A stretch of 35,914 bases of DNA, taken from NCBI GenBank assembly GCA_903936705.1, contig CAIZWN010000032.1, positions 1-35,914 of the forward strand, read 5' to 3'. This document shows positions 6,566-33,865 of this stretch, piece by piece. The translations under genes were made by a program, and so were the position numbers. The notes under the pieces are model-generated. The model worked only from the letters and a program-made list of their open reading frames with translations, searched no databases and was not told where the DNA came from. The stretch's first letter is position 1. Each line of letters begins with the position of its first letter. This DNA is from an uncultured Myxococcales bacterium. Lineage in GTDB: Bacteria > Myxococcota_A > UBA9042 > DTJE01.

Positions 6566-6570
6566 CGGCT

Positions 6571-7473: not shown

Positions 7474-7497
7474 GACGGACTCCTCGTGGGCGGTCTC

Positions 7498-8606: not shown

Positions 8607-8653
8607 TTGAGGATCTCCTCCGCTTGGGGGTGTCGCACGATCGGCCGGCCGGG

Positions 8654-11077: not shown

Positions 11078-12435
11078 CTGCAAAGAAACTCCCACATGGG
11101 TCCGATGATACGTCCGCGCGCATGGGCGCGTCGGACCAGGGCAGCCATTTCGTCGGATGAATCGTCCATGACGAAATTCGAGCGTAGGGACCCTTCCTGG
11201 GCCATGCGTTCCTTAAGCCAGGCTGGGTCAACGTCGGGCGAACAGTAGAAAACGGGGTCGAACAGTGTGTCTTCTGGCGTCACGACGCCTTCGGCCAAGG
11301 CCCTTTGATGCAGCGGCGTGCCGGGATATATTCGAATGGTCATCCCTGGAAAGAAGACCGAATTTGCCAGTGTCGCGGATCTGGCCAGCGTCTCCTCGAC
11401 GGTGGCCCGGGTCTCGCCAGGCCCACCGAACAGCAGGAAATGCGCCCGGTGCACGCCGGCCTCGCCCAGGACAGCATGGGCACGTACGACATCATCAAAA
11501 CGGAACGGCTTGCCGTATGCCTCCAGAACAGGATCGCTGAGCGATTCGGTGCCCAGTTCGGCATGAGTCAATCCGGCAGCGCGCAGCAGTCCTACGTAGG
11601 ACGGTGTCAGGCGCCACGGGGCGATATAGGCGGCGAAAGGCACCTTGACCCCTCGTCGCAACAGTGCCTCGGCAAAGGCCGTCGTGTGGTCCACGTCAAG
11701 GTTGAACACGGAATCCACGAAGAACAGAAAGCGGGCGCCGCCGTCGCGCAGGCGCTCGACTTCGTCAACAAGCGAATCGACGTCGTGGCGGCGCAGGACA
11801 CGTCCTTCGACCATCGGATACGTGCAATAGCAGCATCGCAGGCTGCATCCTCGCTTGGTCTGCAGGTTCAGCATTCCGCCGAAACCCTGGTAGGTCTGGA
11901 AAAGACGCCGAGACGCGGCGGCATGACCAACGCGACCGGTCCACCTGCCTGGCGGCGTCGGTGGCCGTCCGGGTCGGATCAATCCGGGAACCCCGTGTCC
12001 ACCGTTGGCCTCGTCAGGGTCAAGGCCGGCATCAATGGCGTCCACCAGGATTCCCAGGAACTCGCCCTCGCCTACGATGCCGTAATCTGCCCCAAGTTCC
12101 TCCATGTATCGCTGCGGAAAAAGGGTGAAGGCCGCCCCTCCTAGAACAAGGGGGGCGGTCGTAGCCGACTTGATGATGTCAGCCACGCGCCGGTAGTCCG
12201 ACGCGTAAACGCGACCGCCGGGTTGCGGCATGTCGACGTTTCGCAGGCTGATGCCTACGAGGTCAGGCTCGAAGGTGCGGATGGCCTCGGGCAGGGCATC
12301 CTCGCCGTCCACGATGCAGTCGAACAGCGACACCTCGTGGCGGGGCTGAAGGGCGTGAGCCACGTACGATATCCCGATCGGGAAGACCGGGTTGGGGAAT
12401 TTTTCCGGATTGGCCGAGATCAGGAGGACTCTCAC
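11074..12435 (-). CDS. B12-binding domain radical SAM enzyme
   Basis: A 453-residue protein with an N-terminal cobalamin-binding Rossmann domain (VLLISANPEK, PVFPIGISYVA, about 1-130). A radical SAM TIM barrel follows with the cluster motif CSLRCCYC (CxxxCxxC, near residues 190-197), then an HAELGTES segment and an FLLFGGPGET segment typical of this class. The DxHxxG lower-ligand motif is not seen, as is usual for class B enzymes. The GTG at 12435 is chosen because GAGG lies 5 nt upstream; a GTG at 12441 forming GTGA with the previous stop is also possible. It lies between the KS pair and the KS-CLF, with start-stop overlaps on both sides. Likely reaction: C-methylation or another radical step on the polyketide or starter. 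The substrate is unknown. Confidence 0.85.
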   Translation of the reverse strand: MRVLLISANPEKFPNPVFPIGISYVAHALQPRHEVSLFDCIVDGEDALPEAIRTFEPDLVGISLRNVDMPQPGGRVYASDYRRVADIIKSATTAPLVLGGAAFTLFPQRYMEELGADYGIVGEGEFLGILVDAIDAGLDPDEANGGHGVPGLIRPGRPPTPPGRWTGRVGHAAASRRLFQTYQGFGGMLNLQTKRGCSLRCCYCTYPMVEGRVLRRHDVDSLVDEVERLRDGGARFLFFVDSVFNLDVDHTTAFAEALLRRGVKVPFAAYIAPWRLTPSYVGLLRAAGLTHAELGTESLSDPVLEAYGKPFRFDDVVRAHAVLGEAGVHRAHFLLFGGPGETRATVEETLARSATLANSVFFPGMTIRIYPGTPLHQRALAEGVVTPEDTLFDPVFYCSPDVDPAWLKERMAQEGSLRSNFVMDDSSDEMAALVRRAHARGRIIGPMWEFLCR

Positions 12436-12437
12436 CG

Positions 12438-13172
12438 TCACCTCGCCTGGGCCGGGCCGCAATGAATGCGAACCAGCGAACCGCACATCAGGGCCGTTGT
12501 GTCGAATTCTACAGATCCCGGCAGATCCAGGAAGGGCTTCAGCAGGGAATCCAGCCTTGCTGGCGGCCCATCGTCGCCCGAAGCCTCTCGCACAACGGTT
12601 ATCTGACGTGACCTCCCCTGTGGGGACGGCCGGGAACCCAGGATGCACAGTGTTGCGAACCCACTGCATCCGACTCCCGACACGGCGCCGAATTCTCCCG
12701 CTACAGCGGCCTCGCAAGAGCCGGCTGAGACCTCGTGGATCGCGGCGACCAGGGCCGCCACGCCTGCGGATGAGTCCTGGATGATGGCGAAATTGGCACC
12801 GCGATATCCTCGAAGGATGGCCAGTTCCGCGCCGGGAGTGGACGGTAGCGTCCTGGCATACGTGGCGGGCGAAGGGCGCTCGTTGATCGACTTTGCAAAC
12901 GCAAGATCCGCGTCCAGGCTGCCGGTCGAGGAACCGAGTATTACAGATGTCGCGTCGGGCATGTCGGGACACGGAGGCGGCAACAGGCCCGCAGCGCATA
13001 TGACGTAGCGACTTGGCAGATCCAGGCGGGCCAGGCGTGGCTGGTCGGGGAAGAACCGCCGCGGATCGGGCGGTACGTCGTGACCATCGGGATTCCAGGA
13101 CTCGTAGCCATCCGGCCCAGCCAGGACCTGCTGTTCCACCCACGCGATGGCCTGCAGAAAGACTGGTCGCAT
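12438..13172 (-). CDS. Truncated ketosynthase-like protein without active-site Cys (probable CLF/partner subunit)
   Basis: A 244-residue protein resembling only the N-terminal half of a ketosynthase. It has VILGSSTGSLDADLAF and then QDSSAGVAALVAAIHEV, which aligns with the nucleophile elbow of a KS but with Ser instead of Cys. The C-terminal His motifs are absent. Length and content fit the short KS-like 'chain length factor' group found in aryl polyene clusters. ATG 13172 is chosen because GGAGG is 6-7 nt upstream; ATG 13178 overlaps the KS stop (ATGA) but is too close to that site. It directly follows the KS gene 13175-14251, so the two probably form a heterodimer. It has an N-terminal WVEQQVLAG segment of unknown meaning. 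Confidence 0.65.
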   Translation of the reverse strand: MRPVFLQAIAWVEQQVLAGPDGYESWNPDGHDVPPDPRRFFPDQPRLARLDLPSRYVICAAGLLPPPCPDMPDATSVILGSSTGSLDADLAFAKSINERPSPATYARTLPSTPGAELAILRGYRGANFAIIQDSSAGVAALVAAIHEVSAGSCEAAVAGEFGAVSGVGCSGFATLCILGSRPSPQGRSRQITVVREASGDDGPPARLDSLLKPFLDLPGSVEFDTTALMCGSLVRIHCGPAQAR

Positions 13173-13174
13173 GG

Positions 13175-14251
13175 TCATCCCTCCAGCACCAGGGCGGCGT
13201 CCAGCCCACCGAATCCCGCATTCACGGTCATGATTCTTCCTGGTGCGACGTGACGGGTTGATGCGACGATGTCAATGCCGCTGTCGTTAGCGGTGAACCC
13301 GACCGTCCCAGGAATGTATCCCCCATTTATTGCCAGCACGCATGCCACCGCCTCCAGGACTCCGCAGGCCCCCAGCGTATGGCCTGTGGCGCCCTTCAGG
13401 CCGAACACCGGAGGTGCCCCGCCAGGGAAAAAGGCGCGGAATGCGGCAATCTCCATTGCGTCGTTCGCCACGGTGGCAGTGCCGTGGCCGCAGATTGCAT
13501 CGACTTCACGGCCTCCGGAATCGGCAGACGCACGGGCCATTGCCAGGGCCAAGCCAGATCCGTCGTCGCAAGGTCGAACGATCGTGAATGCGTCGCCGGC
13601 CAGGCCCACGCCAGCCAATCGCACACCCGGCACGTGGTCGTCCACCAGCAGGACGGCTGCAGCAGCCTCTCCCAGGGACAGGCCGTCACGGCTGCCGTCG
13701 TAGGGCCTGCACGCAGTTGTTCCCAGGGCACCCAGACACCCGAACCCTTTTGCCAGGAAGGGATCCAGACGGTCGAATCCCAGGACCAGCACCCGCCTTC
13801 CAAAACCCTCTTCGAGCAGCCTGGAGGCCCTGGCAATGGCAACAGCGCCTGACGCGCAAGCAGCCGACACCAGTTCCGCATGGCCACGGTGGCCAGCCGC
13901 TCGTCTGACGCGCGCCAGGAAAGGGCCAAGGCTAGTGGAGCCGCCTGCCGCCAGGAGGCCGGATATGTCCCCCTTTGTCGTGGCGACTATCAGGGCGGTA
14001 TCCGGATCGGCCAGCACGTCAGGATGCTCGCCAGCGCGTCGGCACGTAGATTCCAGCACGCGGACCAGAAACTCGGCAAGAACATCTCCCGGTCCATCCC
14101 AAGCCGGGTGTGGCATGTTTCCAAGCCAGGCCCCGTCTGGTTGCACGCCCAGGCCACCTATTCCGGATTTGATGGCGCTGGTGAAGGCATCAAGATCTGC
14201 GCCCAGGGCGCTGACGACCTCCATGCCCGCAAATCTGGGTTGTATGCGCAT
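13175..14251 (-). CDS. Beta-ketoacyl-ACP synthase (KS)
   Basis: A complete but compact ketosynthase of 358 residues, the first gene of the eleven-gene operon. The catalytic triad is present: Cys near 132 (SAACASG), His near 256 (GHGTAT) and His near 291 (TGHTLGACG). It would catalyse decarboxylative Claisen condensation of malonyl-ACP with an acyl primer. The ATG at 14251 is chosen because residues upstream in the open frame are unlike any KS; the ribosome site is weak. The next gene encodes a KS-like protein lacking Cys, its likely partner. By analogy with aryl polyene systems, one KS initiates on the aryl starter and others elongate. Which role this one has cannot be told from sequence. Confidence 0.85.
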   Translation of the reverse strand: MRIQPRFAGMEVVSALGADLDAFTSAIKSGIGGLGVQPDGAWLGNMPHPAWDGPGDVLAEFLVRVLESTCRRAGEHPDVLADPDTALIVATTKGDISGLLAAGGSTSLGPFLARVRRAAGHRGHAELVSAACASGAVAIARASRLLEEGFGRRVLVLGFDRLDPFLAKGFGCLGALGTTACRPYDGSRDGLSLGEAAAAVLLVDDHVPGVRLAGVGLAGDAFTIVRPCDDGSGLALAMARASADSGGREVDAICGHGTATVANDAMEIAAFRAFFPGGAPPVFGLKGATGHTLGACGVLEAVACVLAINGGYIPGTVGFTANDSGIDIVASTRHVAPGRIMTVNAGFGGLDAALVLEG

Positions 14252-14281
14252 GCCGGGACATCCGTCAGAAACCAGGGGGCG

Positions 14282-14310
14282 ATTCTCGCTGTTCGAGTGA
14301 TGGCGGGCAA
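14282..14310 (-). promoter_or_regulatory. Candidate sigma-70 promoter of the eleven-gene operon
   Basis: On the minus strand TTGCCC (14305-14310) and GAGAAT (14282-14287) are separated by 17 nt, each matching 4 of 6 consensus bases. The predicted transcript starts near 14275, about 24 nt before the KS start codon at 14251. This is a motif match only. Confidence 0.35.
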
Positions 14311-14330
14311 GCCTATTCCGCCTGTGTGCG

Positions 14331-14359
14331 TTGAATTCCAGGGGGACCGCGGGTATCCT
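14331..14359 (+). promoter_or_regulatory. Candidate sigma-70 promoter of the reductase-dehydratase operon
   Basis: TTGAAT (14331-14336) and TATCCT (14354-14359) have a 17-nt spacer. Transcription would begin near 14366, about 58 nt before the GTG start of the reductase gene. It lies back to back with the minus-strand candidate promoter, so the two operons may share control. Confidence 0.45.
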
Positions 14360-14423
14360 ACGCCGGCTTCCGGGTGACTCTCCGCTTCGCATCGATTCGG
14401 GGAATCCCGGCCATGGAGTGCGC

Positions 14424-15377
14424 GTGCAGGCGGGATGCAACCTGGTGATTGGCCTTGGGCCGGTCGGGGCCATAGTGGCATTCCGATTGAAGGCGGCTGG
14501 CGAGCGCGTCTTTGCCGTAGAGAGAAATGTCGAAAGGGCGATGGCCGTCAGGAAGAGCGGCATTCTGCTGACCGACGAGACCGGCAGTCGGACCGAGGTT
14601 CTGGACGGGGTTTTCGACACTCCTTCGGACGCCGTGGCGTCCGGCCATTTCGATTGCGTGTTCGTTTGCGTCAAGGCGAACGATCTTCCGTCGCTTCGTG
14701 CCGACCTGGGCGTACTGGGCGCGTCCGGGGCCACCGTGACAAGCCTGCAGAACGGCCTGGGTATCGAGGACCTGCTGCTGTCGTCGGTGGGTGCCGACCG
14801 TTTCATTCGGGGCGTTGTCAATTTTGCCGGCCAGATGGAAAATCCGGGCTGCGTCAGGGTGACCTTTTTCCAGCCGCCAAATCGACTGGGAGGGCTGGTT
14901 CCGGCGGCTGAAGGGCGCGCCCGCGCCGTGGCCGAGTTGCTGACTCGCGTCGGCCTGCAGTCAGAGGTTCCCGCCGACATCGGCCTGTACGTCTGGCACA
15001 AGATTGTCCATCTGGCCATCCTGGCCCCGGTGTGCGCCGTGACGCGCATGAACATGCGGACCGTTTTGTCCCACAAGGAATTGCGCCATCTGTCGCAGGG
15101 GCTGCTGTCCGAATGCATCGAGGTTGGTTCCCGTCTTGGTTACGATTGCGGCAACGGCTTCTTCGAGATGTCGATGAGGTACGTGCTGGAGGCGGGCGAT
15201 CACCCCCCGTCGATGCTGGTCGATATGCTGCGTGGACGTCCGACCGAGGTTTCGTACATCAACGGCAAGGTCGTCGAGGCGGCGGCGCGACTGGGCGTGG
15301 ATGTGCCGTTGAACCGGACCATCTGTGCCCTGGTCCAGGCGATGGAGACCGGCCGTCCTCATTCCCAGCGACCGTGA
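14424..15377 (+). CDS. Ketopantoate reductase-family 2-oxo acid reductase, probably not acting on ketopantoate
   Basis: A PanE/ApbA-family NADPH-dependent reductase of 317 residues. The N-terminal Rossmann fold has VIGLGPVGAIVAFRL; the catalytic-domain motif SLQNG keeps the conserved Asn. The C-terminal domain has the catalytic Lys in VWHKIV and the Glu of RGRPTEVSYING. The two Asn residues that bind the pantoate part in E. coli PanE (VNCVINP) read HLAILAP here, so the pocket is hydrophobic. That suggests a different 2-oxo acid, for example arylpyruvate to aryllactate; family members acting as D-2-hydroxyacid dehydrogenases are known. GTG 14424 has GGAG 5 nt upstream; GTG 14418 is an alternative. 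The next gene encodes a 2-hydroxyacyl-CoA dehydratase-type protein, 10 nt away, which would use its product. Confidence 0.82.
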   Translation: MQAGCNLVIGLGPVGAIVAFRLKAAGERVFAVERNVERAMAVRKSGILLTDETGSRTEVLDGVFDTPSDAVASGHFDCVFVCVKANDLPSLRADLGVLGASGATVTSLQNGLGIEDLLLSSVGADRFIRGVVNFAGQMENPGCVRVTFFQPPNRLGGLVPAAEGRARAVAELLTRVGLQSEVPADIGLYVWHKIVHLAILAPVCAVTRMNMRTVLSHKELRHLSQGLLSECIEVGSRLGYDCGNGFFEMSMRYVLEAGDHPPSMLVDMLRGRPTEVSYINGKVVEAAARLGVDVPLNRTICALVQAMETGRPHSQRP

Positions 15378-15387
15378 GGCATGCGCC

Positions 15388-16617
15388 ATGTCGGGACGCA
15401 TCGAGTCAACCACACTCCTCCAGTCACTGATGGCCACCGCGTTTCGCGAGTGCGATGCGGCAGCACGCGACCCTTCGCGTCGTGTTGCCTGGTGCAGCAG
15501 CGTCGGTCCGGTTGAACTGCTGCGTGCGCTGGATTTCACCGTGTTCTTCCCGGAAAACCATGCAGCCATGCTGGGCGCTTCCCGCATGTCTACCGGGCTG
15601 ATTCCCTTCGCCAATGCCGAAGGTTTTTCCCCGGAGGTCTGTTCGTACATGACCTCCGATATCGGAGCCTTCAGGCGCAATGTGACGCCACTTTCGCGAG
15701 TCGACCCCTCGATAACGTCGGTTCCGAAGCCGGACGTGCTGGTGTACGACTCGAACCAGTGTCGCGACGTTGTGGACTGGTTCTCGTTCTATGGCCGTGA
15801 ACTGGGTGTGCCAGTGATCGGAGTGGCGGCCCCGCGTGGAGTGCAGGAACCGACCGAGGATCTGGTGGCCGCGGTGGCGTCGCAGATCCGCGCGCTGGTG
15901 TCGCCGCTTGAGGCGATTGCCGGCCGGCGTCTTGACCCGGATCGACTGCGCGAAGCCGTCGCCGTGTCTCGCGACACCTCCGATCTGTGGCGCAGCGTCC
16001 TGTCGTGCGGGGAGGCGCTTCCATCGCCGTTGACCTTCTTCGACGGGTGCATTCACATGGGGCCGGCCGTGGTGTTGCGCGGCGATCCCAGGGCGCTGGA
16101 ATACTACCGGGCCCTGCTGGCCGAGTTGCAAGCCAGGATCGCGGCGGGCCAGGGCGCGGTTTCGGGCGAGCGGGTGCGCCTGTACTGGGACGGGATGCCA
16201 GTCTGGGGCCGTTTGCGTGATCTGTCGGACCTTCTGGCAGGCCTGGGCGCCAGCGTGGTCGGATCTACCTATTGTTCGTCGTGGGTGTTCGGGCAACTGG
16301 ATCCAGATGAGCCGTTCGACAGCATGGCTCGGGCGGCCATCGAGCTTTTCATTGCGCGCACCGACGCTGTGAAGGAAATGGTTCTGGCGGGCGAGGCGCT
16401 CCGTTATCGCGTGGACGGGATAGTGTTCCACGACGCGAAGACCTGTCCGAACAACAGCAACTGTCGTTACGGGATGCCGGCGCGCCTGCGGGAAGGGAAG
16501 GGTCTTGCGTCCGTCATCGTCCACAGCGATCTGAACGATCTTCGTCTGCACGCCGACGAAGGGGTGCGCCTTGCCTTGGAGGCCTTCGTGGAACAATGCC
16601 TGGAGGCGCGCCGGTGA
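15388..16617 (+). CDS. 2-hydroxyacyl-CoA dehydratase D-component-like iron-sulfur protein (HgdB/FldC/BcrC family)
   Basis: A 409-residue protein of the 2-hydroxyglutaryl-CoA dehydratase D-component family. These proteins hold a [4Fe-4S] cluster and eliminate water from 2-hydroxyacyl-CoA through a ketyl radical. Family hallmarks are WCSSVGPVELLRAL, Cys85 in EVCSYMTSDIGAF, Cys125 in YDSNQCRD, Cys353/Cys359 in KTCPNNSNC, and a final VHSDLNDLR segment where relatives have a (I/E)-D-C/D-R-type motif. ATG 15388 has GAGG about 8 nt upstream. It overlaps the activator gene (GTGA). Classic dehydratases need two different D subunits (such as FldB and FldC); only one is encoded here. It may be a homodimer, have a partner elsewhere, or be a YjiM-like double-cubane protein. 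The enzyme class is oxygen-sensitive. Confidence 0.85.
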   Translation: MSGRIESTTLLQSLMATAFRECDAAARDPSRRVAWCSSVGPVELLRALDFTVFFPENHAAMLGASRMSTGLIPFANAEGFSPEVCSYMTSDIGAFRRNVTPLSRVDPSITSVPKPDVLVYDSNQCRDVVDWFSFYGRELGVPVIGVAAPRGVQEPTEDLVAAVASQIRALVSPLEAIAGRRLDPDRLREAVAVSRDTSDLWRSVLSCGEALPSPLTFFDGCIHMGPAVVLRGDPRALEYYRALLAELQARIAAGQGAVSGERVRLYWDGMPVWGRLRDLSDLLAGLGASVVGSTYCSSWVFGQLDPDEPFDSMARAAIELFIARTDAVKEMVLAGEALRYRVDGIVFHDAKTCPNNSNCRYGMPARLREGKGLASVIVHSDLNDLRLHADEGVRLALEAFVEQCLEARR

Positions 16618-17405
16618 ACGCCTGTTTTTACTGCGGCGTCGATGTAGGTTCATCGTATTCCAAGGCCGTTCTGCTGGACGCGTCTGGAGGGTTTGCTGCC
16701 GGTGCCATTCGCCGGACCGGCCTGGATTTTGCCCGTGTTGCAATGGAGTTGCACCAGGATCTGCTGGTGGCAGTGCCGGATGCGCGGGACAACGTGGCCA
16801 GGACCGTTGCCACCGGCTACGGCCGCGACAACGTGGCATTCGCCACCAGTCGCATTACCGAGGTTTCCTGCCAGGCTGCGGCTTGCTGGCACCTGTTTCA
16901 CCAGGCGCTGACCGCGATCGACGTGGGCGGCCAGGATACAAAGATCATCGTGCTGGGTGAGACCGGCCGTCGAACCGATTTCCGGATGAACCGGCGTTGC
17001 GCCTCGGGCACGGGTGCGTTTCTGGAGGAAATGGCTGCCCGTCTTGACACGACGCCGGATGGTCTGGAGGCGCTGGCCGGGAGGGGGCGTGATGCCGTGC
17101 CTTTGTCGTCGTTTTGCACGGTATTCGCCAAGGGCGAATTGTTGTCGTTGATCCGTGCCGGACGCCCGGTCGAGGACATCGCGCTAGGTGTCTACGACGC
17201 GGTGGTTCGCAGGGTCGTGGAAATGGCGTCGTTGCAATCGGGAACCATCGTGCTGACGGGTGGCGCCGCGCGACCCGGTGGCGTTCTGGTTGGTCGCTTC
17301 GAGGCCGCTCTGGGACGTCAGGTGCTGGTGCCCGACCGACCCCAATTGACGGTCGCTTTGGGGGCGGCGTTGCTGGCGATGCGGGAAGGGGAGGGCGTGC
17401 CATGA
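16614..17405 (+). CDS. ATP-dependent activator of 2-hydroxyacyl-CoA dehydratase (HgdC/FldI/YjiL family)
   Basis: A 263-residue ASKHA-fold ATPase that donates one electron to the partner dehydratase on ATP hydrolysis. It contains the phosphate-1 loop GVDVGSSYSKAV, DVGGQDTK, and the two conserved Cys that bind the shared [4Fe-4S] cluster between two monomers (NRRCASGTGAF and SSFCTVFAKGE). The adenosine motif is LTGGAARPGG. GTG 16614 forms GTGA with the dehydratase stop and has GGAGG 7 nt upstream. The stop overlaps the synthetase start (ATGA). Tight coupling with the dehydratase gene indicates they work as a pair. Activators of benzoyl-CoA reductase are related, so that family remains an alternative. 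Confidence 0.92.
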   Translation: MNACFYCGVDVGSSYSKAVLLDASGGFAAGAIRRTGLDFARVAMELHQDLLVAVPDARDNVARTVATGYGRDNVAFATSRITEVSCQAAACWHLFHQALTAIDVGGQDTKIIVLGETGRRTDFRMNRRCASGTGAFLEEMAARLDTTPDGLEALAGRGRDAVPLSSFCTVFAKGELLSLIRAGRPVEDIALGVYDAVVRRVVEMASLQSGTIVLTGGAARPGGVLVGRFEAALGRQVLVPDRPQLTVALGAALLAMREGEGVP

Positions 17406-19558
17406 GTTTCGCCGGGGCTTTGCGCCAAGGTGCGACGTTGGCGGTCGAAGGTCAGCCTCCTGCCGGCGACCTGTCCTTCCTGTTCAGGCCACGTGGCGTA
17501 GCGGTGCTGGGCGCATCGTCAAGGGAACTCAGCATCGGTTATCGCGTCGTTCGAAACCTGCTTGATGCCGGGTTCACGGGCGGGATCTACCCCGTGCATC
17601 CTACCGAGCGAGAGGTGTGTGGGCTGCCGGCATTTCATTCCATCAGCGATGTTCCGGGGCCAATCGACCTTGTAAACGTGGCTCTGCGCGCCGACCGGGT
17701 GCCCGAGGCTTTGGATGCGTGCGGGCTGGCCGGTGTCCGGGCGGCGATCATACATTCGGCCGGGTTCGCCGAGGTCGGCCCGCAGGGGGCTGTCCTGGAA
17801 TCACAGGCGCTGGAGACCGCGCGCCGGCATGGGATGCGGCTGCTTGGCCCGAATGCGCAGGGCCTGATGAACAGCGACCCCGACGTGCGGCTGTACGCGT
17901 CGTTCACGTTCACGCCGCTGGTGCCCGGCCCGGTGACGATCCTGGCCCACAGCGGGGGCGTGGCCGAGCTTTTGAACCTGCATCTGCGTCGGGCGGGCGT
18001 AGGGATTCGCTGGTACGCCAGTCCTGGGAATTCGTGTGACGTGGATCTGTCTGAACTGCTGGCCGCTGCAGCCACCGACGAAGGGACGCGCGTCATTCTG
18101 ATGTACATCGAGTCGGTGCGCGACATGCCAGCCTTCGCTGACGCGGCGTTGCGCGCTGGCCGCGACAAGGCGCTGCTGGTCCTGAAGGCCGGCCGCACAC
18201 CCGACGGCGCTCGCGCTGTGACTTCGCATACCGGTGCGCTGGCTTCGGGGGATGTACCTTTCGACGCAATCCTGAACAGGGCCGGAGCCCTGCGGATGCC
18301 TACGTTGCGGGAGGCTGTTGCAGCGGCGACCGCCATCGCACGGCAGCCTCTTCCTCGTGGCAGGCGGACGGCGTTGGTTTGCAATGCTGGCGGGCCCGGC
18401 ATCGCGGCGCTTGACGATGCCTGCCTGAGCGGGCTGGAGTGCGCCACTTTGACCGACGCTACGCGGGCTTCTTTGCGTGATTCGCAGTCGCCTTTTGCCA
18501 CCATCGGTGCCCTGGTCGACCTTGCGGCCACTGCCGGTCCGCTCGAGTTCAGATCGGCGCTGAATACCCTTCTTGCCGCGGATGAAGTTGACGGCCTGGT
18601 CCTGTCCATGGTTACACCGTTCTTCGTGGACTGCGATGCAGTGGCAGATGCCGTGGCCCTGGCCGCTGCCACGTCGGACAAGCCGGTCGTTGTGAACGTG
18701 ATCACGGATGGCCGTTGGTCCGGTGTGGAGGATCGCCTGCGGTCTTCCGGCCTGCCGGTGTTCGAGTTCCCGGAGGACGCCTCGCGTGCCATGGCGGCGT
18801 TGACCAGAGTTGCCGAGATGCGAACTCGCTTGCCGGTTTCACCTCCATGGGAACGGCTGGACCGGTCGCGTCTTGAGGCTGTCCTGCGGGCATCCCGGAT
18901 CAATTCCGATGGCTGGCTTTCACAGGGCGACGCTTACGCGATGCTTGCTGCCGCCGGGATTCCATCTGCGCCAATCGTTGTGTTGCGGGACGATGCGCAG
19001 CTTTCAGCCTTTGTCGAAACCGTCGCGCGACAACTTGGTTTTCCGGTGGTCGTGAAGGCTGACATGCCCGGCCTTGTGCACAAGTTGGCTGCCGGAGCGG
19101 TGCTGCTGAATATCGCTGACCGGGCATCCCTGGTTGCCGCAGTGACCGCCTTGCGTTCCCGTTTCGGCGAGGCGCACATGTACGCACAGCGCCAGGTTGA
19201 TGGCGGCATCGAGGCGATCCTTGGAGTCGTTGCGCAGTATCCGGGCTTGCCGCTGGTGATGGCCGGCCAGGGCGGCACGAACGTCGAAAAACGCGGGAGC
19301 GTCGCTTTCGCCTTGGCCCCGCTGGACGATGTTGCTGCGCTGCGATTGATTGCCGGATCGCGATGTCCGGCTTTCGATGACACGGCATGGGACTGCGAAA
19401 TCCAGGGTGAAGGGGCTCAGTTGGCAGATGCCCTCGTGCGCCTGTCGCTGCTGGCGGTCATCTTGCCGACGGTACGGGAGATCGACATCAACCCGCTGAC
19501 GGTCCTGCCTTCAGGCGGCGGCTGCATCGCACTGGACTGCCGCATGCGTGTGTCCTGA
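17402..19558 (+). CDS. ADP-forming acyl-CoA synthetase (fused alpha-beta subunits)
   Basis: A 718-residue NDP-forming acyl-CoA synthetase: a CoA-binding Rossmann domain (FLFRPRGVAVLGAS, about 25-150), ligase-CoA/succinyl-CoA-synthetase-like domains with the phospho-His motif TSHTGALASGD, and a C-terminal ATP-grasp domain (VVVKADMPGLVHKLAAGAV to INPLTVLPSGG, about 510-710). It interconverts acid, CoA and ATP with acyl-CoA, ADP and phosphate, through a phosphohistidine. The ATG overlaps the activator stop. In this operon the simplest role is to make the 2-hydroxyacyl-CoA substrate of the dehydratase. In other organisms these enzymes often run in the ATP-forming direction, so the direction is an inference. 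Confidence 0.88.
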   Translation: MSFAGALRQGATLAVEGQPPAGDLSFLFRPRGVAVLGASSRELSIGYRVVRNLLDAGFTGGIYPVHPTEREVCGLPAFHSISDVPGPIDLVNVALRADRVPEALDACGLAGVRAAIIHSAGFAEVGPQGAVLESQALETARRHGMRLLGPNAQGLMNSDPDVRLYASFTFTPLVPGPVTILAHSGGVAELLNLHLRRAGVGIRWYASPGNSCDVDLSELLAAAATDEGTRVILMYIESVRDMPAFADAALRAGRDKALLVLKAGRTPDGARAVTSHTGALASGDVPFDAILNRAGALRMPTLREAVAAATAIARQPLPRGRRTALVCNAGGPGIAALDDACLSGLECATLTDATRASLRDSQSPFATIGALVDLAATAGPLEFRSALNTLLAADEVDGLVLSMVTPFFVDCDAVADAVALAAATSDKPVVVNVITDGRWSGVEDRLRSSGLPVFEFPEDASRAMAALTRVAEMRTRLPVSPPWERLDRSRLEAVLRASRINSDGWLSQGDAYAMLAAAGIPSAPIVVLRDDAQLSAFVETVARQLGFPVVVKADMPGLVHKLAAGAVLLNIADRASLVAAVTALRSRFGEAHMYAQRQVDGGIEAILGVVAQYPGLPLVMAGQGGTNVEKRGSVAFALAPLDDVAALRLIAGSRCPAFDDTAWDCEIQGEGAQLADALVRLSLLAVILPTVREIDINPLTVLPSGGGCIALDCRMRVS

Positions 19559-19592: not shown

Positions 19593-20006
19593 TCAGACAG
19601 CCACCGGCGTGGTCTTCAAAACCAGGCAGCCAACCCGCACGATCCGTCGGAAGTGGTCGTCGTACGTGAGGACCGTTGCCCCCTCCCGGACGGCCATGGC
19701 GGCGACCCACAAATCGTTCGTCGGCACAGGCGTGCCTGCACGACGCAGGTCGGCGAACAGTTCTGCATATGTGTCGGCAGTCTCGTGGTCAACGTTGACC
19801 ACCCTTACAGCCGGGTTGGACAGAAACTGGATCAGGCCTGCTTCGTTTTCTTCCGTACGCGAACCCAGTTGGAACCCTGCGTGGAGTTCGCCCAGGACGA
19901 TCACAGGAACCAGGACGGACCTGGCGCGGGTTATGGCCTGGACAGCCTCGGGGCTGCCACGCCGGAAGTTGGTATAGGCAGAGGTGTCCAGGCATATCCT
20001 GGTCAT
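19593..20006 (-). CDS. vapC: VapC-family PIN-domain ribonuclease toxin
   Basis: A 137-residue PIN-domain protein. The four acidic active-site residues are in ICLDTSAY, VLGELHAGF, TNDLWVAAMA and LTYDDHF. VapC toxins cut RNA, commonly tRNA or rRNA, and are held in check by their antitoxin. The ATG at 20006 overlaps the antitoxin stop (ATGA), a standard vapBC layout. It converges on the acyl-CoA synthetase gene with 34 nt between the stops. It has no evident tie to the polyketide genes and was probably acquired as a small mobile module. Confidence 0.92.
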   Translation of the reverse strand: MTRICLDTSAYTNFRRGSPEAVQAITRARSVLVPVIVLGELHAGFQLGSRTEENEAGLIQFLSNPAVRVVNVDHETADTYAELFADLRRAGTPVPTNDLWVAAMAVREGATVLTYDDHFRRIVRVGCLVLKTTPVAV

Positions 20007-20254
20007 CGCCACATCTCCGCATCGACAACTTCGAAGGCTTTGGTTGCCTGCTCGAACTCTGCGAGATCTGCGGGCGACCAGGTGCCGGCAAGATGCCCAA
20101 GCCCGTTGTCGAAAAAGGCGCGTCGAGCGATCCCGGTCGCCTGGCTCAACAAATCGATGACCGTCTGGTTCAGCGATAGTCCCCTTTCGCGCTGTTCCTG
20201 CTGCAGTTGGCGCGCAAGTTCCTCTGGCACATTCCGAACCGTCAAATGTCGCAT
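20003..20254 (-). CDS. vapB: VapB-family antitoxin with Arc/FitA-type ribbon-helix-helix
   Basis: An 83-residue protein starting at ATG 20254 with GGAG 5 nt upstream. The N-terminus (RHLTVRNVPEELARQLQQ, then GLSLNQTVIDLLSQATG) is a ribbon-helix-helix DNA-binding fold of the FitA/Arc type. The acidic, Trp-containing C-terminus (FEQATKAFEVVDAEMWR) would wrap the toxin. It should bind the toxin and repress its own promoter; a direct repeat straddling the promoter is a candidate binding site. Confidence 0.88.
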   Translation of the reverse strand: MRHLTVRNVPEELARQLQQEQRERGLSLNQTVIDLLSQATGIARRAFFDNGLGHLAGTWSPADLAEFEQATKAFEVVDAEMWR

Positions 20255-20277
20255 GCCGACTCCGTGTATTCACATGG

Positions 20278-20307
20278 TGCATTCTATCAATGCTGAGTGA
20301 TGCATTC
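20278..20307. repeat. Direct repeat overlapping the vapBC promoter (candidate operator)
   Basis: TGCATTC occurs at 20278-20284 and again at 20301-20307, 23 bp apart, about two helical turns. The copies touch the -10 and -35 boxes. Ribbon-helix-helix antitoxins bind such repeated half-sites as paired dimers, so this may be the autoregulatory operator. Confidence 0.4.
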
Positions 20308-20309
20308 AA
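20281..20309 (-). promoter_or_regulatory. Promoter of vapBC
   Basis: On the minus strand TTGAAT (20304-20309) and TAGAAT (20281-20286) are separated by exactly 17 nt. Transcription would begin near 20274, 20 nt before the antitoxin ATG. This is one of the best promoter matches in the window. Confidence 0.65.
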
Positions 20310-20345
20310 CTGATCCTCATGAGCCAGTCCCTGCATGGAATATCG

Positions 20346-20368: not shown

Positions 20369-20441
20369 ACCGCGTTGAATCTCTGTCATCCCAACCGTCA
20401 TGTCATGTGCCCGTCTGCGCCCGGCGCCAAAGCCGGTCGTC

Positions 20442-20470
20442 TTGACGCCCACTGTCCTGTCTGATAGTTT
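20442..20470 (+). promoter_or_regulatory. Candidate promoter of the acpS-ACP operon
   Basis: TTGACG (20442-20447) and TAGTTT (20465-20470) have a 17-nt spacer. The transcript would start near 20477, about 43 nt before the acpS ATG. Confidence 0.5.
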
Positions 20471-20519
20471 TTCCGGCGCCATTGCAGGCGTTTGCCAGCC
20501 TTTATACGGCGGTTTTTCG

Positions 20520-20912
20520 ATGGTCCGCGGGGTCGGAACCGACATCGTGGTGATTGAGGACCTCAGGCTGCGGATGGAACGCTCGCCGGGGCTGGAGCAG
20601 AAGGTCTTCGACCCCGGTGAATCGGCGTATTGCCGTTCGATGGCCAGGCCATTCCAGCACTTCGCGGCGCGGTTCGCGGCGAAGGAGGCTGTAATGAAGG
20701 CGTTGGGGACGGGCTGGGGCGCGGGAGTGGACTTCGCGGATATCGTGGTGGTCCGTGGGGCGGAAGGCGCGCCGACCGTTGAATTGAAGGGCGAGGCCGC
20801 CCGGCGGGTGCTCGCGGCCAGTGGGCGGGTGCACGTGTCCCTGTCGCATGCCGGCGAACATGCCGTTGCATTTGCGGTTTTCGAGGCCCAGGAGGAGTTG
20901 CATCATGGCTGA
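20520..20912 (+). CDS. acpS: AcpS-family 4'-phosphopantetheinyl transferase
   Basis: A 130-residue AcpS-type enzyme that moves the phosphopantetheine arm of CoA onto a Ser of an ACP. The Mg-binding Asp8 is in GVGTDIVVIEDL, and Glu56 is in RFAAKEAVMKALGTG, both in the usual AcpS arrangement. The C-terminal SLSHAGEHAVAFAV is typical. ATG 20520 fits the normal AcpS length; the ribosome site is weak. Its last codons overlap the ACP gene, so it is very likely the dedicated activator of the cluster's ACPs (20905 and 27799), like the transferases of other aryl polyene clusters. It may also be the cell's only AcpS; that cannot be judged here. Confidence 0.9.
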   Translation: MVRGVGTDIVVIEDLRLRMERSPGLEQKVFDPGESAYCRSMARPFQHFAARFAAKEAVMKALGTGWGAGVDFADIVVVRGAEGAPTVELKGEAARRVLAASGRVHVSLSHAGEHAVAFAVFEAQEELHHG

Positions 20913-21177
20913 TATCCCCGCGGACCTGAACGGCGAGATCAAGCGAGTGATTGTCGAGGCGCTGAACCTGGATACCCCTCCGGAGGATATCTTGGACGAC
21001 GCTCCGCTGTTCGGCGAGGGTCTTGGTTTGGATTCGATTGACGCACTGGAGATCGCGATGGTGCTGGAGAAGCGCTTTGCAATCAAGGTGCAGCCGGACA
21101 AGGAAACCAAGAAGTACTTTTTCTCGATTGCGACCCTGGCCGACCTGGTCCGCCAGCGACTGGCCGGCGTGTCCTGA
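20905..21177 (+). CDS. Acyl carrier protein
   Basis: A 90-residue ACP. The phosphopantetheine attachment Ser is Ser44 in GLGLDSIDALEIA, followed by a basic VLEKRFAIKV helix and an unusual KETKKYFFS insertion before helix IV. ATG 20905 has GGAGGAG at ideal spacing and overlaps the acpS stop by 8 nt. Aryl polyene clusters carry two ACPs (ApeE and ApeF); the second is encoded at 27799-28107. It should carry the growing polyene or the starter unit. Confidence 0.95.
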   Translation: MADIPADLNGEIKRVIVEALNLDTPPEDILDDAPLFGEGLGLDSIDALEIAMVLEKRFAIKVQPDKETKKYFFSIATLADLVRQRLAGVS

Positions 21178-21206: not shown

Positions 21207-21920
21207 ATGTCAGAAAACCCCGATGAAACAGACCTGGCCGTTGTTCCGGTGGCGCCGGTGCAATCACCGCAGGTTGGCCAGGCTGCTCCAGGCTTCGCAC
21301 GGCGGTTGGTTGGTATTTTCGCCGGGTTGCTGCTGGTGGTCTACCCGTTGGTGGTGTATCTCGCCCTGACGCGCCTTGGTGCGCGGGCCACGGCCGCGCT
21401 GGTCCTTCTTGCCCTGTTGCTGTGGGGATTGCGTGCGCGGCTGTTGGTGAAGCAGGGCTTTCGCACTCTTCTGGTGCAGGTTGGCGGGATCGCGGTGCTG
21501 TCGATCCTGACGTTGGCGTCAGGTTATCCGGCGTTTCTTCAACAGATGCCCGTCCTGGTCAGCGTGTTTCTTCTGGTGACGTTCCTGTCCAGCCTGGTGC
21601 GTCCGCCGCCGATGGTCGAGCGGTACGCTCGCCTGGTGACGCCTGACTTGTCGGACGCTGAGGTTCGCCACTGTCTGGTCGTGACGTGGGCCTGGGTTTT
21701 GTTCCTTGTTGCCAATGCTGCCACGGCCGAGGCGCTGGTGATTTGGGGTACCCCCGAGCAGTGGGCCATCTTTGCTGGCGGGATTTCATACGGGCTGATG
21801 GGCCTGATGTTTGCCGTAGAATACGTTGTTCGCAAGGCACGTTTTGGCCGGTTCGGTAACGGGCCGCTGGATCGAGTGCTGGCCGAGTTGCTGCGCGGCG
21901 ATTCCCAGGGGAACCCATGA
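21207..21920 (+). CDS. COG4648-like membrane protein of aryl polyene clusters (ApeG-like)
   Basis: An integral membrane protein of 237 residues with about six predicted helices, grouped near residues 34-55, 62-75, 90-105, 114-128, 160-178 and 186-205. The first 30 residues are cytoplasmic-like and Pro/Gln-rich. ATG 21207 has GGGAGG 3-4 nt upstream. Its place between an ACP and a PlsC-type acyltransferase matches a conserved small membrane protein of aryl polyene clusters with no known biochemical function. The identification rests on context and topology. Confidence 0.7.
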   Translation: MSENPDETDLAVVPVAPVQSPQVGQAAPGFARRLVGIFAGLLLVVYPLVVYLALTRLGARATAALVLLALLLWGLRARLLVKQGFRTLLVQVGGIAVLSILTLASGYPAFLQQMPVLVSVFLLVTFLSSLVRPPPMVERYARLVTPDLSDAEVRHCLVVTWAWVLFLVANAATAEALVIWGTPEQWAIFAGGISYGLMGLMFAVEYVVRKARFGRFGNGPLDRVLAELLRGDSQGNP

Positions 21921-22753
21921 ACAGTCGCGGTCGTCGCATGCGCGGCGTCTTTCACACCCTGGTGTTCTACTCGCTGTGGGTGGTGGTTGGAGTCGCTTTC
22001 ACGCTTGTCTTCTTCCCGCCGCTGTACCTGTTGTCGCGTCTTGTGCCAGGGGCGGTGCGTCCGTTTCGCGTGTTCACGCGGCACTTCTACGGGGTGATCA
22101 TCCGGGCGCTGGAAGTTACCGGTGCCATTCGCCTTGGAGAAATGAAGGGTGTCGAACGGCTGCATCGAGGTGGAGCCGCGGTGGTGGTCGCAAACCATCG
22201 AACTCTTCTTGATGTGCTGATTTTGATGTGGCAACTGCCCCATGCATCGTGCCTGCTGAAACCGCTGAAAAAGGCGCCCGATGGCCAGTCGCGCAATACC
22301 ATGCCCGACTTCTGGAAGCCGTTCATAATGGCCCCGTTCTCATTGCTGGGCTATGTCCCGATGCCTCCGTCCTGGAACGACAGGGATGCTTTGAAGCAGA
22401 CGTTTGATCGGTGCATCGCCCTGTTGCGAGCAGGTCGGCCAGTAGTCATCTTCCCCGAAGGTACGCGTTCACCCGATGGACGCCTTCTGCCATTTCGTGA
22501 TTTCCCGTTCCATCTGGCCAAAGCAGCCGGGGTGCCGCTGGTGCCGGTGCTGATCCACACCGACACTCGCTTCATGCCGCAGGGTACTGTTGGCATTGAT
22601 GCGGCGCGGCGTTGCACATACCGACTGATGGTTCTTCCGGACATCCTTCTGGGTCCGCGCTTGCGATCGGCTGATCTGCTTGTCGAGGCTCGCATGCGAA
22701 TCCAGAAGGCCGTCGGCGAGTATGACCTGGAATACGGCTACCTGGACGAATGA
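21917..22753 (+). CDS. PlsC-type 1-acyl-glycerol-3-phosphate acyltransferase-like enzyme (ApeD-like)
   Basis: A 278-residue acyltransferase with one N-terminal membrane helix (about 13-40). It has the HX4D catalytic motif NHRTLLD near residue 93, and the glycerol-phosphate-binding FPEGTRSPDG block near 175. ATG 21917 overlaps the previous stop (ATGA). Such enzymes move an acyl group from acyl-ACP or acyl-CoA to a glycerol-type acceptor. In aryl polyene clusters one lipid acyltransferase of this kind and one of the LpxL type are thought to build the membrane anchor to which the polyene is attached. The acceptor here is not known. Confidence 0.85.
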   Translation: MNSRGRRMRGVFHTLVFYSLWVVVGVAFTLVFFPPLYLLSRLVPGAVRPFRVFTRHFYGVIIRALEVTGAIRLGEMKGVERLHRGGAAVVVANHRTLLDVLILMWQLPHASCLLKPLKKAPDGQSRNTMPDFWKPFIMAPFSLLGYVPMPPSWNDRDALKQTFDRCIALLRAGRPVVIFPEGTRSPDGRLLPFRDFPFHLAKAAGVPLVPVLIHTDTRFMPQGTVGIDAARRCTYRLMVLPDILLGPRLRSADLLVEARMRIQKAVGEYDLEYGYLDE

Positions 22754-22794: not shown

Positions 22795-24867
22795 CTACAA
22801 GGCAATACGCACGTCCACGACCGTTGCTCCGAGTCCATTCGCGTGGACCAGCACCGGATTAAGATCGATCTCGCGGATTTCCGGACAGGTGGCCATGAGG
22901 CCTCCGACTGCCTCGATGACCGCCACAAGGGCATCGATGTCGGCGGGCGGCTGGCCGCGAACGCCGTCCAGAAGCTTTGCCGCGCGAAGATCTGACAGCA
23001 TGTCTCGCGCCTCGAACGCCGTGACCGGCGCCAGGCGGAATGACGTGTCCTTGAGAACCTCGACCAGCACGCCTCCCAGACCCACAACTACCAGGGGCCC
23101 GAACACCGGATCCCTGGTGCCGCCCACAATCATCTCGATGCCTCGCGCGGCCATCGCCTGTAACAAAACTCCTTCGCCGGTATCGAACGGCCCGAACCTT
23201 TCTGTGAGGTCGGAAAAGACCTCGGCCAGACGGACCCCGTCATTGATTCCCAGGACGACTCCGCCGGCATCGCTCTTGTGGACGGCTTTTGCCGAGATGA
23301 CCTTGGCGGCAACCGGGAACGAGGCAACCTTCATGAGGTCGGATGCCTCCTTGGCCATGGTCCATGGCGCCACGCTGACGCCGGCAGCCTGGAGCACATC
23401 AAACCCTTCGGACAGCAGCGACGTCCGTCCCGCCTTCGCCAGCGCGCTGACCTTGTCGGCTGCCGCCTGCACGCGCTGGGGAACCTGCCACGATCCATTC
23501 GACGACCGGCGCTGCTTCAGCAGTACGTTCCGGTGCGACGCGGAAAGTGCCTTGATCCCCTGCTCCACCGAAGTGAAGAACGGGTAGTTGTTCAGCTTCT
23601 TCAGCTCGGCCAGCTCTACCGCATCACTGTAAAGGGCGACAACGATCGGCTTGTCGTACTTTTTTGCCAGTTCCTCGGCCTTGGAAACCAGTTTTCTGGA
23701 CCCGTGGCGCCGGGAGTCGGCGACATACGTGTGGGCCAGGATCACCGCGTCGAAGTCGGGATGGGCGGCGGCCTCTTCCATCAGTTCGGCGTAAACCTCG
23801 AAGTTGAAAAGGTCCCCCAGATCCAACGGGTTGCGTGGGCGAATAACTGACGACGAATGCAACCTGGCGAACGTGGCAAGAAATTCTGGTGGCAGGGGAG
23901 GCAGCGTAAATCCGCATTCGGCGGCGCTGTCGGCGCTGATGACAGCGTGACCGCCGGAACGCGAGATGACGGCCACCCTGGGGCCCTTCATCGGTGGCAT
24001 CAGGAAGCCCTTAACCTGGGTGATCATGTCGTCGGTGTCGATGACCCGCAGCGCGCCGGCCTGCTGAATCGCCGCCGTCAGTACGGCATCGTCCGAGGCT
24101 AGTGCCGCGGTGTGCGAGAACGCTGCGGCAGACCCAAGCGAAGTGCGTCCCGACTTCTGTATGAGGACTGGCTTGTCACATGCCCGCAGCGCCTCGAAAA
24201 ACGCGCGTCCCCTAGACACACCCTCCAGATACATTGCAATGATGCCAGTCTGTTCGCCATTTGCCAGCGCGTTCAGGAAGTCCGTTTCGTCCAGGTCCAG
24301 CTTGTTTCCAAGAGATGCGAAGTGCGAGACTCCAATGTTCTCGCTGGCCATGTCGAAGAGGTAGGTCACGCCGACCCCGCCCGACTGCGCCGCGATGGCT
24401 ACGTTCCCGGTGCGCCACAAAACTGGGCACGGCACGAATATCGTGAACATCCCGTGACTGAATGTGGACATCCCCAGACAGTTCGGTCCCTGGAAGCGGA
24501 TACCGTGCCGGCGCGCTATTGCAAGGACTTCCTCACCCAGAGCCTCGCCCTCGGGTCCCATCTCCTTGAAGCCGGCGCTTTCGATGACCACGTGGCGGAT
24601 CCCCTTGGTGCCGCAGTTTTCCATCATCCCGGGGATCGTCTTGGCTGGCGTGATGATCAGCGCCATGTCGATTCCCTGCGGAATCTCGTCCCAGGACGTC
24701 TTGATCCGGTGGCCGATAAGTACGCCCGGATCGCGCCCCATAAGGTGCAGTTCTCCCTTGAACCGGAACTCCATCAGGTTGGCTACGATGTTGCGACCCA
24801 GGTTGTCTGCCTTCGGCGAGACGCCGATAACCAGCAGGCTTTTCGGGAAGAACAGTTGATCCAGCAC
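22795..24867 (-). CDS. ADP-forming acyl-CoA synthetase, second copy
   Basis: A 690-residue fused alpha-beta NDP-forming synthetase: a CoA-binding domain (LFFPKSLLVIGVSP), a phospho-His motif FSHTAALASDD, and a C-terminal ATP-grasp domain (VAAKVISAKAVHKSDAGGVV to EIREIDLNPVLV). GTG 24867 is used because GGAGG sits exactly 5 nt upstream and the CoA-binding domain then begins at once; ATG 24903 and 24888 fall in a hairpin and add residues without family features. It is divergent in sequence from the copy at 17402, so it is not a recent duplicate. It is the last gene of the FabD-side operon but separated by 85 nt. Possible roles are making malonyl or aryl acyl-CoA, or recovering acids. Confidence 0.87.
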   Translation of the reverse strand: MLDQLFFPKSLLVIGVSPKADNLGRNIVANLMEFRFKGELHLMGRDPGVLIGHRIKTSWDEIPQGIDMALIITPAKTIPGMMENCGTKGIRHVVIESAGFKEMGPEGEALGEEVLAIARRHGIRFQGPNCLGMSTFSHGMFTIFVPCPVLWRTGNVAIAAQSGGVGVTYLFDMASENIGVSHFASLGNKLDLDETDFLNALANGEQTGIIAMYLEGVSRGRAFFEALRACDKPVLIQKSGRTSLGSAAAFSHTAALASDDAVLTAAIQQAGALRVIDTDDMITQVKGFLMPPMKGPRVAVISRSGGHAVISADSAAECGFTLPPLPPEFLATFARLHSSSVIRPRNPLDLGDLFNFEVYAELMEEAAAHPDFDAVILAHTYVADSRRHGSRKLVSKAEELAKKYDKPIVVALYSDAVELAELKKLNNYPFFTSVEQGIKALSASHRNVLLKQRRSSNGSWQVPQRVQAAADKVSALAKAGRTSLLSEGFDVLQAAGVSVAPWTMAKEASDLMKVASFPVAAKVISAKAVHKSDAGGVVLGINDGVRLAEVFSDLTERFGPFDTGEGVLLQAMAARGIEMIVGGTRDPVFGPLVVVGLGGVLVEVLKDTSFRLAPVTAFEARDMLSDLRAAKLLDGVRGQPPADIDALVAVIEAVGGLMATCPEIREIDLNPVLVHANGLGATVVDVRIAL

Positions 24868-24884
24868 GTCGACCTCCGCAGGTG

Positions 24885-24905
24885 GCATGCCTACTTCAGG
24901 CATGC
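24885..24905. repeat. Perfect inverted repeat upstream of the second acyl-CoA synthetase
   Basis: GCATGCCT (24885-24892) and AGGCATGC (24898-24905) form an 8-bp perfect stem with a 5-nt loop, ending 18 nt before the GTG start. There is no T run, so it is not an intrinsic terminator. It may be an operator or an RNA hairpin in the leader. Confidence 0.4.
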
Positions 24906-25924: not shown

Positions 25925-25926
25925 CG

Positions 25927-26673: not shown

Positions 26674-26704
26674 CCAGGCACTCCAATTCGAAATCCGAAA
26701 TAAG

Positions 26705-28107: not shown

Positions 28108-28121
28108 TCGTTCCTCGTTAA

Positions 28122-28138
28122 CCGGCGTGCCACGCCGG
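28122..28138. repeat. Perfect 17-bp palindrome in the leader of the ACP operon
   Basis: CCGGCGTG and CACGCCGG flank a single central base (28130). It lies 14 nt before the start codon and just after the predicted transcription start (about 28147), where a repressor would block transcription. No T run follows, so it is not a terminator. Confidence 0.45.
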
Positions 28139-28153
28139 CCCAAGTGCGGCGAT

Positions 28154-33836: not shown

Positions 33837-33865
33837 GTCGCCCCTCCGTGTTCCCAAAATACCCC

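Follow-up and report, generated by a model that had tools for sequence, protein, structure and literature searches.

The window analyzed here is an entire contig (CAIZWN010000032.1, C32; 35,914 nucleotides, 35.9 kb) from the 4.85-Mb, 96% complete draft genome of an uncultured Myxococcales bacterium (G000). It contains an aryl polyene (APE) type gene cluster in which lies a module of four genes encoding a PanE/KPR-family 2-oxo acid reductase, a 2-hydroxyacyl-CoA dehydratase component D (HGD-D), its ATP-dependent activator and an ADP-forming acyl-CoA synthetase. Protein families were assigned by Pfam and NCBIfam/TIGRFAM profile cut-offs, and the APE genes were identified by a gene-by-gene phmmer comparison with the annotated Escherichia coli CFT073 cluster (ApeA–ApeR, 18 genes). 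The comparison of relatives covered 14 genomes of the order and, for phylum-wide scans, 379 Myxococcota genomes.

The four-gene module

The four open reading frames (ORFs) occupy positions 14418–19558 of the plus strand (Table 1) and are coupled, in turn, by a 10-bp gap, a 22-bp overlap and a 4-bp ATGA overlap. An earlier note on this stretch, made from the DNA alone, had described four tightly coupled genes of these families, and the ORF coordinates and Pfam/TIGRFAM matches agree. The reductase, for which 3hn2 is the nearest solved structure and which also matched the KPR-family chains 3wfi and 2ew2, is kept in the operon in G001, G002, G004, G010 and G011. The activator is a component A of the CoA_E_activ type and is closest to HadI of Clostridioides difficile (4eht, E 7e-44), while the synthetase retains the SHTGAL motif, whose histidine we take to be the phosphorylated residue.

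HGD-D matched HadB, the alpha subunit of C. difficile (R)-2-hydroxyisocaproyl-CoA dehydratase (3o3m_A), with an E-value of 5e-59. Its AlphaFold model (pLDDT 95) superimposes on HadB with a Z score of 51.2 and an rmsd of 1.6 Å over 393 residues, compared with Z scores of 42–46 for benzoyl-CoA reductase subunits and 34 for a double-cubane protein. It has the alpha fold of component D and the three cysteines for a [4Fe-4S] cluster: Cys85, Cys125 and Cys353, together with Ser38 and Glu56, are invariant across 37 relatives and align with HadB Cys84, Cys117, Cys346, Ser37 and Glu55. In HadB, the three cysteines presumably bind the cluster, and Ser37 and Glu55 are, we assume, important. Judged by fold, active-site residues and motif, the module enzymes look competent. 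The likeness to the HadBC/HadI system of C. difficile, which extends to the activator, is nevertheless a distant one, since HGD-D is 26% identical to HadB, scores 164.5 bits with the HadB model against a cut-off of 750 bits, and is not accompanied by a HadC.

Two other identities of the dehydratase were considered and rejected. There is no BcrC/BzdN-type partner of a class I benzoyl-CoA reductase among the annotated ORFs of the window, and HadB gives the best fold match and alignment; MbdO has an isoleucine at the position where both HadB and HGD-D have serine. Double-cubane proteins match weakly in sequence and less well in structure (Z 34 vs 51 for HadB).

The module lies within an aryl polyene-type cluster

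Counterparts of 15 of the 18 E. coli CFT073 Ape genes were found in the window: ApeC, D, E, F, G, I, J (split), K, L, M, N (by Pfam), O, P, Q and R. They comprise the ketosynthase/chain-length factor (KS/CLF), ketoreductase, two dehydratases and acyl carrier proteins (ACPs) homologous to ApeO/C/Q/I/P/E/F, as well as the export and tailoring set ApeJ–ApeN, in accord with the earlier recognition of an APE-type cluster. In contrast to the E. coli cluster, the window has no counterparts of ApeA, ApeB (methyltransferase) or ApeH (starter ligase), and this dedicated aryl starter ligase is also missing from the genome. Beyond the E. coli set and the four-gene module, the cluster has a radical SAM/B12 protein, two further KS/CLF pairs, FabD, AcpS, a GcvT-like protein and a second ADP-forming synthetase; the radical SAM protein (TIGR04072 family), the total of three KS/CLF pairs and the second synthetase had escaped the earlier note.

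Because APE genes flank the module on both sides, it lies inside the cluster. It had been described as divergent from, and back to back with, the polyene genes; the divergence is real for the neighboring KS gene, which starts at 14251 on the minus strand about 165 bp from the reductase gene, but the cluster resumes beyond the module. A sigma-70-type promoter scan of this intergenic gap found no promoter and was uninformative.

The embedding of the module between APE genes is found in three species of the genus (G000, G001 and G002), with a similar gene order and with most proteins 61–89% identical. Within the order (14 genomes), an HGD-D with at least 67% identity occurs only in G000, G001, G002, G004, G010 and G011, and a KS-CLF fusion occurs in exactly the same six (Fisher p 3e-4, kinship ignored). 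In a quick tree, the HGD-Ds of these six APE genomes form one clade (SH-aLRT 99), and the distant HGD-Ds of G006 and G007, which belong to the same family and lack APE, are placed inside the wider group. Thus, the link of the module to the APE cluster is backed by both co-distribution and conserved embedding. In the phylum sample, KS-CLF and HGD-D occur together in 10 of 10 genomes, including four from two other families; four of the ten carry a different KS-CLF cluster (three of these without an ApeM hit), and a shared lifestyle may explain the co-occurrence. An ApeM homologue is present in 89 of the 379 Myxococcota genomes, and its overlap with HGD-D across the phylum is weak (7 genomes, 3.3 expected, p 0.025).

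Starter enzymes in genomes with and without the module

In E. coli, the APE starter is made from chorismate, which chorismate lyase converts to 4-hydroxybenzoate for ApeH (PMC8253772). A tyrosine or phenylalanine ammonia-lyase (TAL/PAL) as the starter source was rejected for G000, where the sole Lyase_aromatic match (on C78) is HutH (TIGR01225, 672.9 bits, S-H motif). Each of the six module-bearing genomes has one lyase, in every case HutH (631–673 bits vs the 539 cut-off, with the S-H motif). A genome-wide search of the six for ApeH found nothing except a 102-residue fragment match in G001; the same query detected ApeH in 13 control genomes, with E-values no higher than 1e-38. The earlier remark that neither an ammonia-lyase nor an AMP-forming aryl ligase is visible therefore extends, HutH apart and, for ligases, with regard to the ApeH type, to all six draft genomes with this arrangement.

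Other APE clusters of the phylum are equipped differently. We read 20 further Myxococcota APE loci, taken from the top ApeM hits, and counted 18 (one was too short, and G015 was left out). Fifteen of these carry a non-HutH aromatic lyase (34–39% identical to HutH) and/or ApeH, G304 being included because its ApeH lies on the same contig just beyond the stretch read; four in-cluster lyases score 366–412 with the HutH model, below its cut-off. A clear ApeH is present in 13 of 16 APE genomes without the module. A lyase or ApeH was thus found in none of seven HGD-D genomes (the six and G015) and in 15 of the 18 others, a difference whose Fisher p of ~2.5e-4 is only indicative, given the kinship of the genomes and the choice of the panel from the top ApeM hits; by independent lineage, the comparison is 0/2 vs 15/18 (p 0.05). 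G015, from another family, is a possible second case, with an ApeM cluster that has no lyase or ApeH in view and PanE beside HGD-D elsewhere. The lyase-bearing clusters (L193–L211) share ApeJ–ApeM-type genes, and some of them the radical SAM protein, with the window, but they take their starter from an aromatic lyase and/or ApeH and have no HGD-D module. Since APE relatives carry the usual starter enzymes and this genome has the radical module, the starter is probably made by a different chemistry.

The module outside aryl polyene clusters

HGD-D has at least 515 relatives, the best 80 of which, examined in a genome scan, belong to Desulfobacterota, Geobacteraceae, Acidobacteriota, Planctomycetota, Pseudomonadota, Thermoplasmatota, Lokiarchaeia and others. 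The PanE-family reductase, the activator and the ADP-forming synthetase recur beside the dehydratases of these relatives. Neighbors scoring over NCBIfam cut-offs include IorA, 6-hydroxycyclohexene-CoA dehydrogenase, Oah and BzdN, and IorB, PaaK-like ligases, enoyl-CoA hydratases and thiolases are found as well. At least one aromatic marker is present at 23 of 76 module loci (17 of 45 loci of 14 kb or more) and at none of 36 unmatched control loci.

These neighborhoods fit a route from arylpyruvate through cinnamoyl-CoA to benzoyl-CoA, and the frequent position of the module beside arylpyruvate and benzoyl-CoA genes favors an aryl substrate. A similarly composed cluster of a benzene degrader (BzS1_26180-210) has been proposed as a phenyllactyl-CoA dehydratase forming cinnamoyl-CoA (PMC13416013). 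It likewise has a dehydratase-domain protein beside an acyl-CoA synthetase, but it is catabolic and was described with CoA-transferase-related proteins, and the likeness noted here is one of composition.

At four loci of anaerobes (L104, L105, L110 and L113), the HGD-D module sits inside benzoyl-CoA/arylpyruvate clusters with IorAB, PaaK-like, Oah, Had and BzdN genes. These loci are candidates for a phenylalanine-to-benzoyl-CoA route via cinnamoyl-CoA.

A proposed radical route to the starter

In the pathway that we propose, phenylpyruvate or 4-hydroxyphenylpyruvate, one step from prephenate, would be reduced to the 2-hydroxy acid (aryllactate) by the PanE-family enzyme, and the ADP-forming synthetase would convert this acid to its CoA ester (aryllactyl-CoA). 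The ATP-driven activator would then pass a single electron to the HadB-type dehydratase, here a single subunit, with which this enzyme would strip off the alpha-hydroxyl and a beta-hydrogen, forming cinnamoyl- or coumaroyl-CoA by way of a ketyl radical. ATP-driven electron transfer and a ketyl radical constitute the mechanism of 2-hydroxyacyl-CoA dehydratases (PMC11574389). Either a KS/CLF pair or the acyltransferase would accept the arylacrylyl-CoA as the starter, which the type II enzymes encoded around the module would elongate; the ApeJ–ApeN-type genes would then serve to glycosylate and/or acylate the product and to export it. The earlier note had drawn a parallel to the phenyllactate branch of Clostridium (FldH/FldA/FldBC/FldI). 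With the system of C. sporogenes, this parallel holds for the logic, as the proposed sequence from 2-oxo acid through 2-hydroxy acid and CoA ester to 2-enoyl-CoA, with an ATP-driven activator, is the same; it does not hold for the parts, as the window has a PanE-family reductase, an ADP-forming synthetase instead of the CoA-transferase FldA, one D subunit rather than the two of FldBC, and a setting that we propose to be anabolic.

We consider it fairly probable that, by supplying an arylacrylyl-CoA starter, the module stands in for two enzymes of the APE pathway, the aromatic ammonia-lyase and the aryl ligase. Recruitment into the APE cluster of a catabolic module that converts arylpyruvate to arylacrylyl-CoA is the most economical reading, and the overall interpretation of the earlier note is partly supported. 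With confidence slightly above even, we further suggest that an APE is here primed by a ketyl-radical dehydratase, apparently without a beta subunit, in a biosynthetic formation of cinnamoyl- or coumaroyl-CoA from arylpyruvate that would be a non-homologous replacement of lyase plus ligase.

Several observations weigh against this proposal. All characterized 2-hydroxyacyl-CoA dehydratases are alpha-beta dimers (PMC11574389), whereas one D gene per module is found in the window and in the relatives. The enzyme seems to work without the usual beta subunit, possibly as a homodimer, and a beta partner might act in trans; a second HGD-D paralogue (34% identical; G000:C35:56324-57418, L017), present in most of the family, has its own activator and is alpha (HadB)-like by NCBIfam. 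The module of G010 and G011 lies on a different contig from the conserved ApeI–ApeN arm, and that of G004 is also on a separate contig, which restricts the physical linkage to a single genus. Enzymes of the radical SAM/B12 and HGD-D types are both markers of anaerobes, and their co-occurrence could partly reflect lifestyle. An ApeH-type ligase is absent, but other AMP-forming ligase families and chorismate lyase were not searched genome-wide. Finally, the module is widespread without APE (37 of 39 carrier genomes checked have no KS-CLF, the other two being records of G010 and G004), and in the wider family the majority of loci have no visible aromatic marker; a module that is catabolic elsewhere could be so here. 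According to the earlier note, its proposal would fall if the operon were common without polyene genes. Taken literally, this is what was found, but the settings there are often aromatic and the APE-linked dehydratases form their own clade, which argues for recruitment rather than unrelatedness.

A catabolic role in this genome, in which amino acids (aromatic or not) would be broken down through 2-hydroxyacyl-CoA and enoyl-CoA, as other anaerobes do, and the place in the APE cluster would be incidental or co-regulatory, is unlikely but deserves attention. It draws on the aromatic degradation clusters in which the APE-free module sits and on the unlinked modules of G010 and G011. However, no beta-oxidation, IorAB or benzoyl-CoA genes surround the module in the window, and an Oah query of the order's 14 genomes, run without a positive control, had no hits. 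The embedding has been kept in three diverged species, the clade of these dehydratases tracks APE, and a catabolic module would leave the APE cluster without visible starter enzymes.

It is improbable that the module instead supplies a non-aryl 2-enoyl-CoA starter, branched-chain or other, for a polyene lipid whose head is not aromatic. HadB, to which HGD-D is closest among solved proteins, does act on 2-hydroxyisocaproyl-CoA, the HGD-D sequence holds no marker of substrate specificity, and the TIGR04072 radical SAM protein and extra KS/CLF pairs suggest an unusual lipid; the aromatic neighborhoods of the wider dehydratase family and the aromatic lyases of sister APE clusters in the phylum nevertheless speak for an aryl starter. 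That the dehydratase feeds not the APE chain but a radical SAM/KS-CLF sub-module for a ladderane- or polyunsaturated-hydrocarbon-like lipid, as the 10/10 co-occurrence of KS-CLF with HGD-D and the naming of TIGR04072 as a ladderane-region family (cf. PMC2649909) might suggest, is very improbable, since TIGR04072-like proteins also occur at APE loci with ammonia-lyase and the rest can be explained by shared anaerobiosis.

Replacement of the lyase and ligase by the module, if true, would add a third route to the APE aromatic starter beside ammonia-lyase chemistry and chorismate-derived hydroxybenzoate, in one of the most widespread bacterial pigment families. A class of enzymes known from fermentation would thereby enter natural-product biosynthesis, and the retention of the pathway by anaerobes of a pigment-making phylum, despite their lack of lyase and ligase genes, would be explained. 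The host is probably anaerobic, judging from its enzyme types. Oxygen independence, which the earlier note had put forward as the distinguishing point, is not distinctive, because neither the 4-hydroxybenzoate/ApeH route of E. coli nor the ammonia-lyase/ligase route needs O2 (ammonia-lyases use no oxygen); the novelty would lie in a radical, probably obligately anoxic route. We know of no report of the 2-hydroxyacyl-CoA dehydratase class in secondary metabolism, and a literature search whose coverage mostly excluded subscription journals found no link between APE and these enzymes. The comparison also points to a large, uncharacterized branch of single-subunit 2-hydroxyacyl-CoA dehydratases that is spread over hundreds of anaerobes, both bacteria and archaea.

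Other genes of the cluster

The genes of the module and of the surrounding cluster are listed in Table 1, in which KS and CLF are told apart by the presence or absence of the catalytic cysteine.

Table 1 Genes of the APE-type cluster and its four-gene module, in order of position.
Feature	Position	Strand	Evidence and remarks
DUF3261 protein (ApeN type)	2414–3088	-	PF11659, E 1.3e-10
ApeM-like MMPL/RND transporter	3057–5426	-	E 1.4e-28
ApeL-like LolA	5464–6141	-	E 8.5e-7
ApeK-like thioesterase (4HBT)	6053–6613	-	E 1e-27
ApeJ equivalent, split in two	6571–8253	-	GT2 (7498–8253) and LpxL-type acyltransferase (6571–7473); ApeJ E 2.6e-44 and 4.3e-35
ApeI-like dehydratase	8250–8780	-	ORF limits, true start probably internal; ApeI E 3.5e-8
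Fused KS-CLF	8654–11077	-	ApeR-like KS half and CLF half without Cys
B12-binding radical SAM protein, TIGR04072 family	11074–12435	-	373.8 bits > 360 cut-off; CxxxCxxC present
Small KS-like protein without catalytic Cys (CLF-like)	12438–13178	-	Partner of KS at 13175–14251; conserved in six genomes
Ketosynthase with Cys-His-His	13175–14251	-	Divergent from PanE gene
PanE/KPR-family 2-oxo acid reductase	14418–15377	+	In-frame GTG start at 14418 or 14424; PF08546/PF02558; TIGR00745, 178 bits > 141 cut-off; proposed arylpyruvate to aryllactate step
HGD-D, 2-hydroxyacyl-CoA dehydratase component D, alpha (HadB) type, single subunit	15388–16617	+	PF06050, 188.6 bits
ATP-dependent activator (ASKHA, [4Fe-4S] initiator, CoA_E_activ type)	16596–17405	+	PF01869; TIGR00241, 181.9 bits > 125.4 cut-off
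ADP-forming acyl-CoA synthetase	17402–19558	+	PF13607/PF13380/PF13549; 8wzu, E 7.5e-90; proposed aryllactate to aryllactyl-CoA step
AcpS-type phosphopantetheinyl transferase	20400–20912	+	PF01648
ApeE-like acyl carrier protein	20821–21177	+	E 5.7e-21
ApeG-like membrane protein	21207–21920	+	E 2.4e-20
ApeD-like lysophospholipid acyltransferase	21917–22753	+	E 4e-10
Second ADP-forming acyl-CoA synthetase	22795–24903	-	No counterpart found at G001 locus
FabD-type malonyltransferase	24953–25930	-	TIGR00128, 264.6 > 260.9
SDR ketoreductase	25927–26943	-	ORF limits
GcvT-like folate-domain protein	26705–27802	-	Between ACP and SDR; conserved in G001
Second ACP (ApeF position)	27799–28143	-	
ApeO-like ketosynthase	28909–30084	+	E 1e-67
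ApeC-like chain-length factor	30081–30890	+	E 8e-10
ApeP-like dehydratase	30769–31305	+	ORF limits; E 3.9e-7
ApeQ-like ketoreductase	31302–32039	+	E 3e-66, 48% identity

The three KS/CLF pairs, one of them fused, lie at 8654–14251 and 28909–30890; the E. coli cluster has one KS/CLF pair and one KS. Homologues of the radical SAM protein, 33–34% identical, are present at several other Myxococcota APE loci. We considered a ladderane cluster, as the protein scores over the TIGR04072 cut-off, and rejected it because similar proteins also sit at lyase-bearing APE loci, which makes this gene a recurrent APE partner. As there is no ApeB, the protein might, at a guess, methylate the head group or the chain.

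At locus L146 of G015 (7333–15947), which belongs to another Myxococcota family with HGD-D, a probable radical SAM protein is accompanied by two KS-CLF fusions, an ACP, a KS and KS-like genes. G366 (L150) also has a GcvT-like protein, close to a KS-CLF cluster that includes an ACP. The gene of a PIN-domain protein (19593–20336, minus strand) separates the module from AcpS; the loci of G001 and G002 show no counterpart of it. An OmpA-domain protein (32094–33878, minus strand) lies at the cluster edge in both G000 and G001; its long N-terminal part matches the TraB outer-membrane exchange model, though below the cut-off (288.8 of 700 bits).

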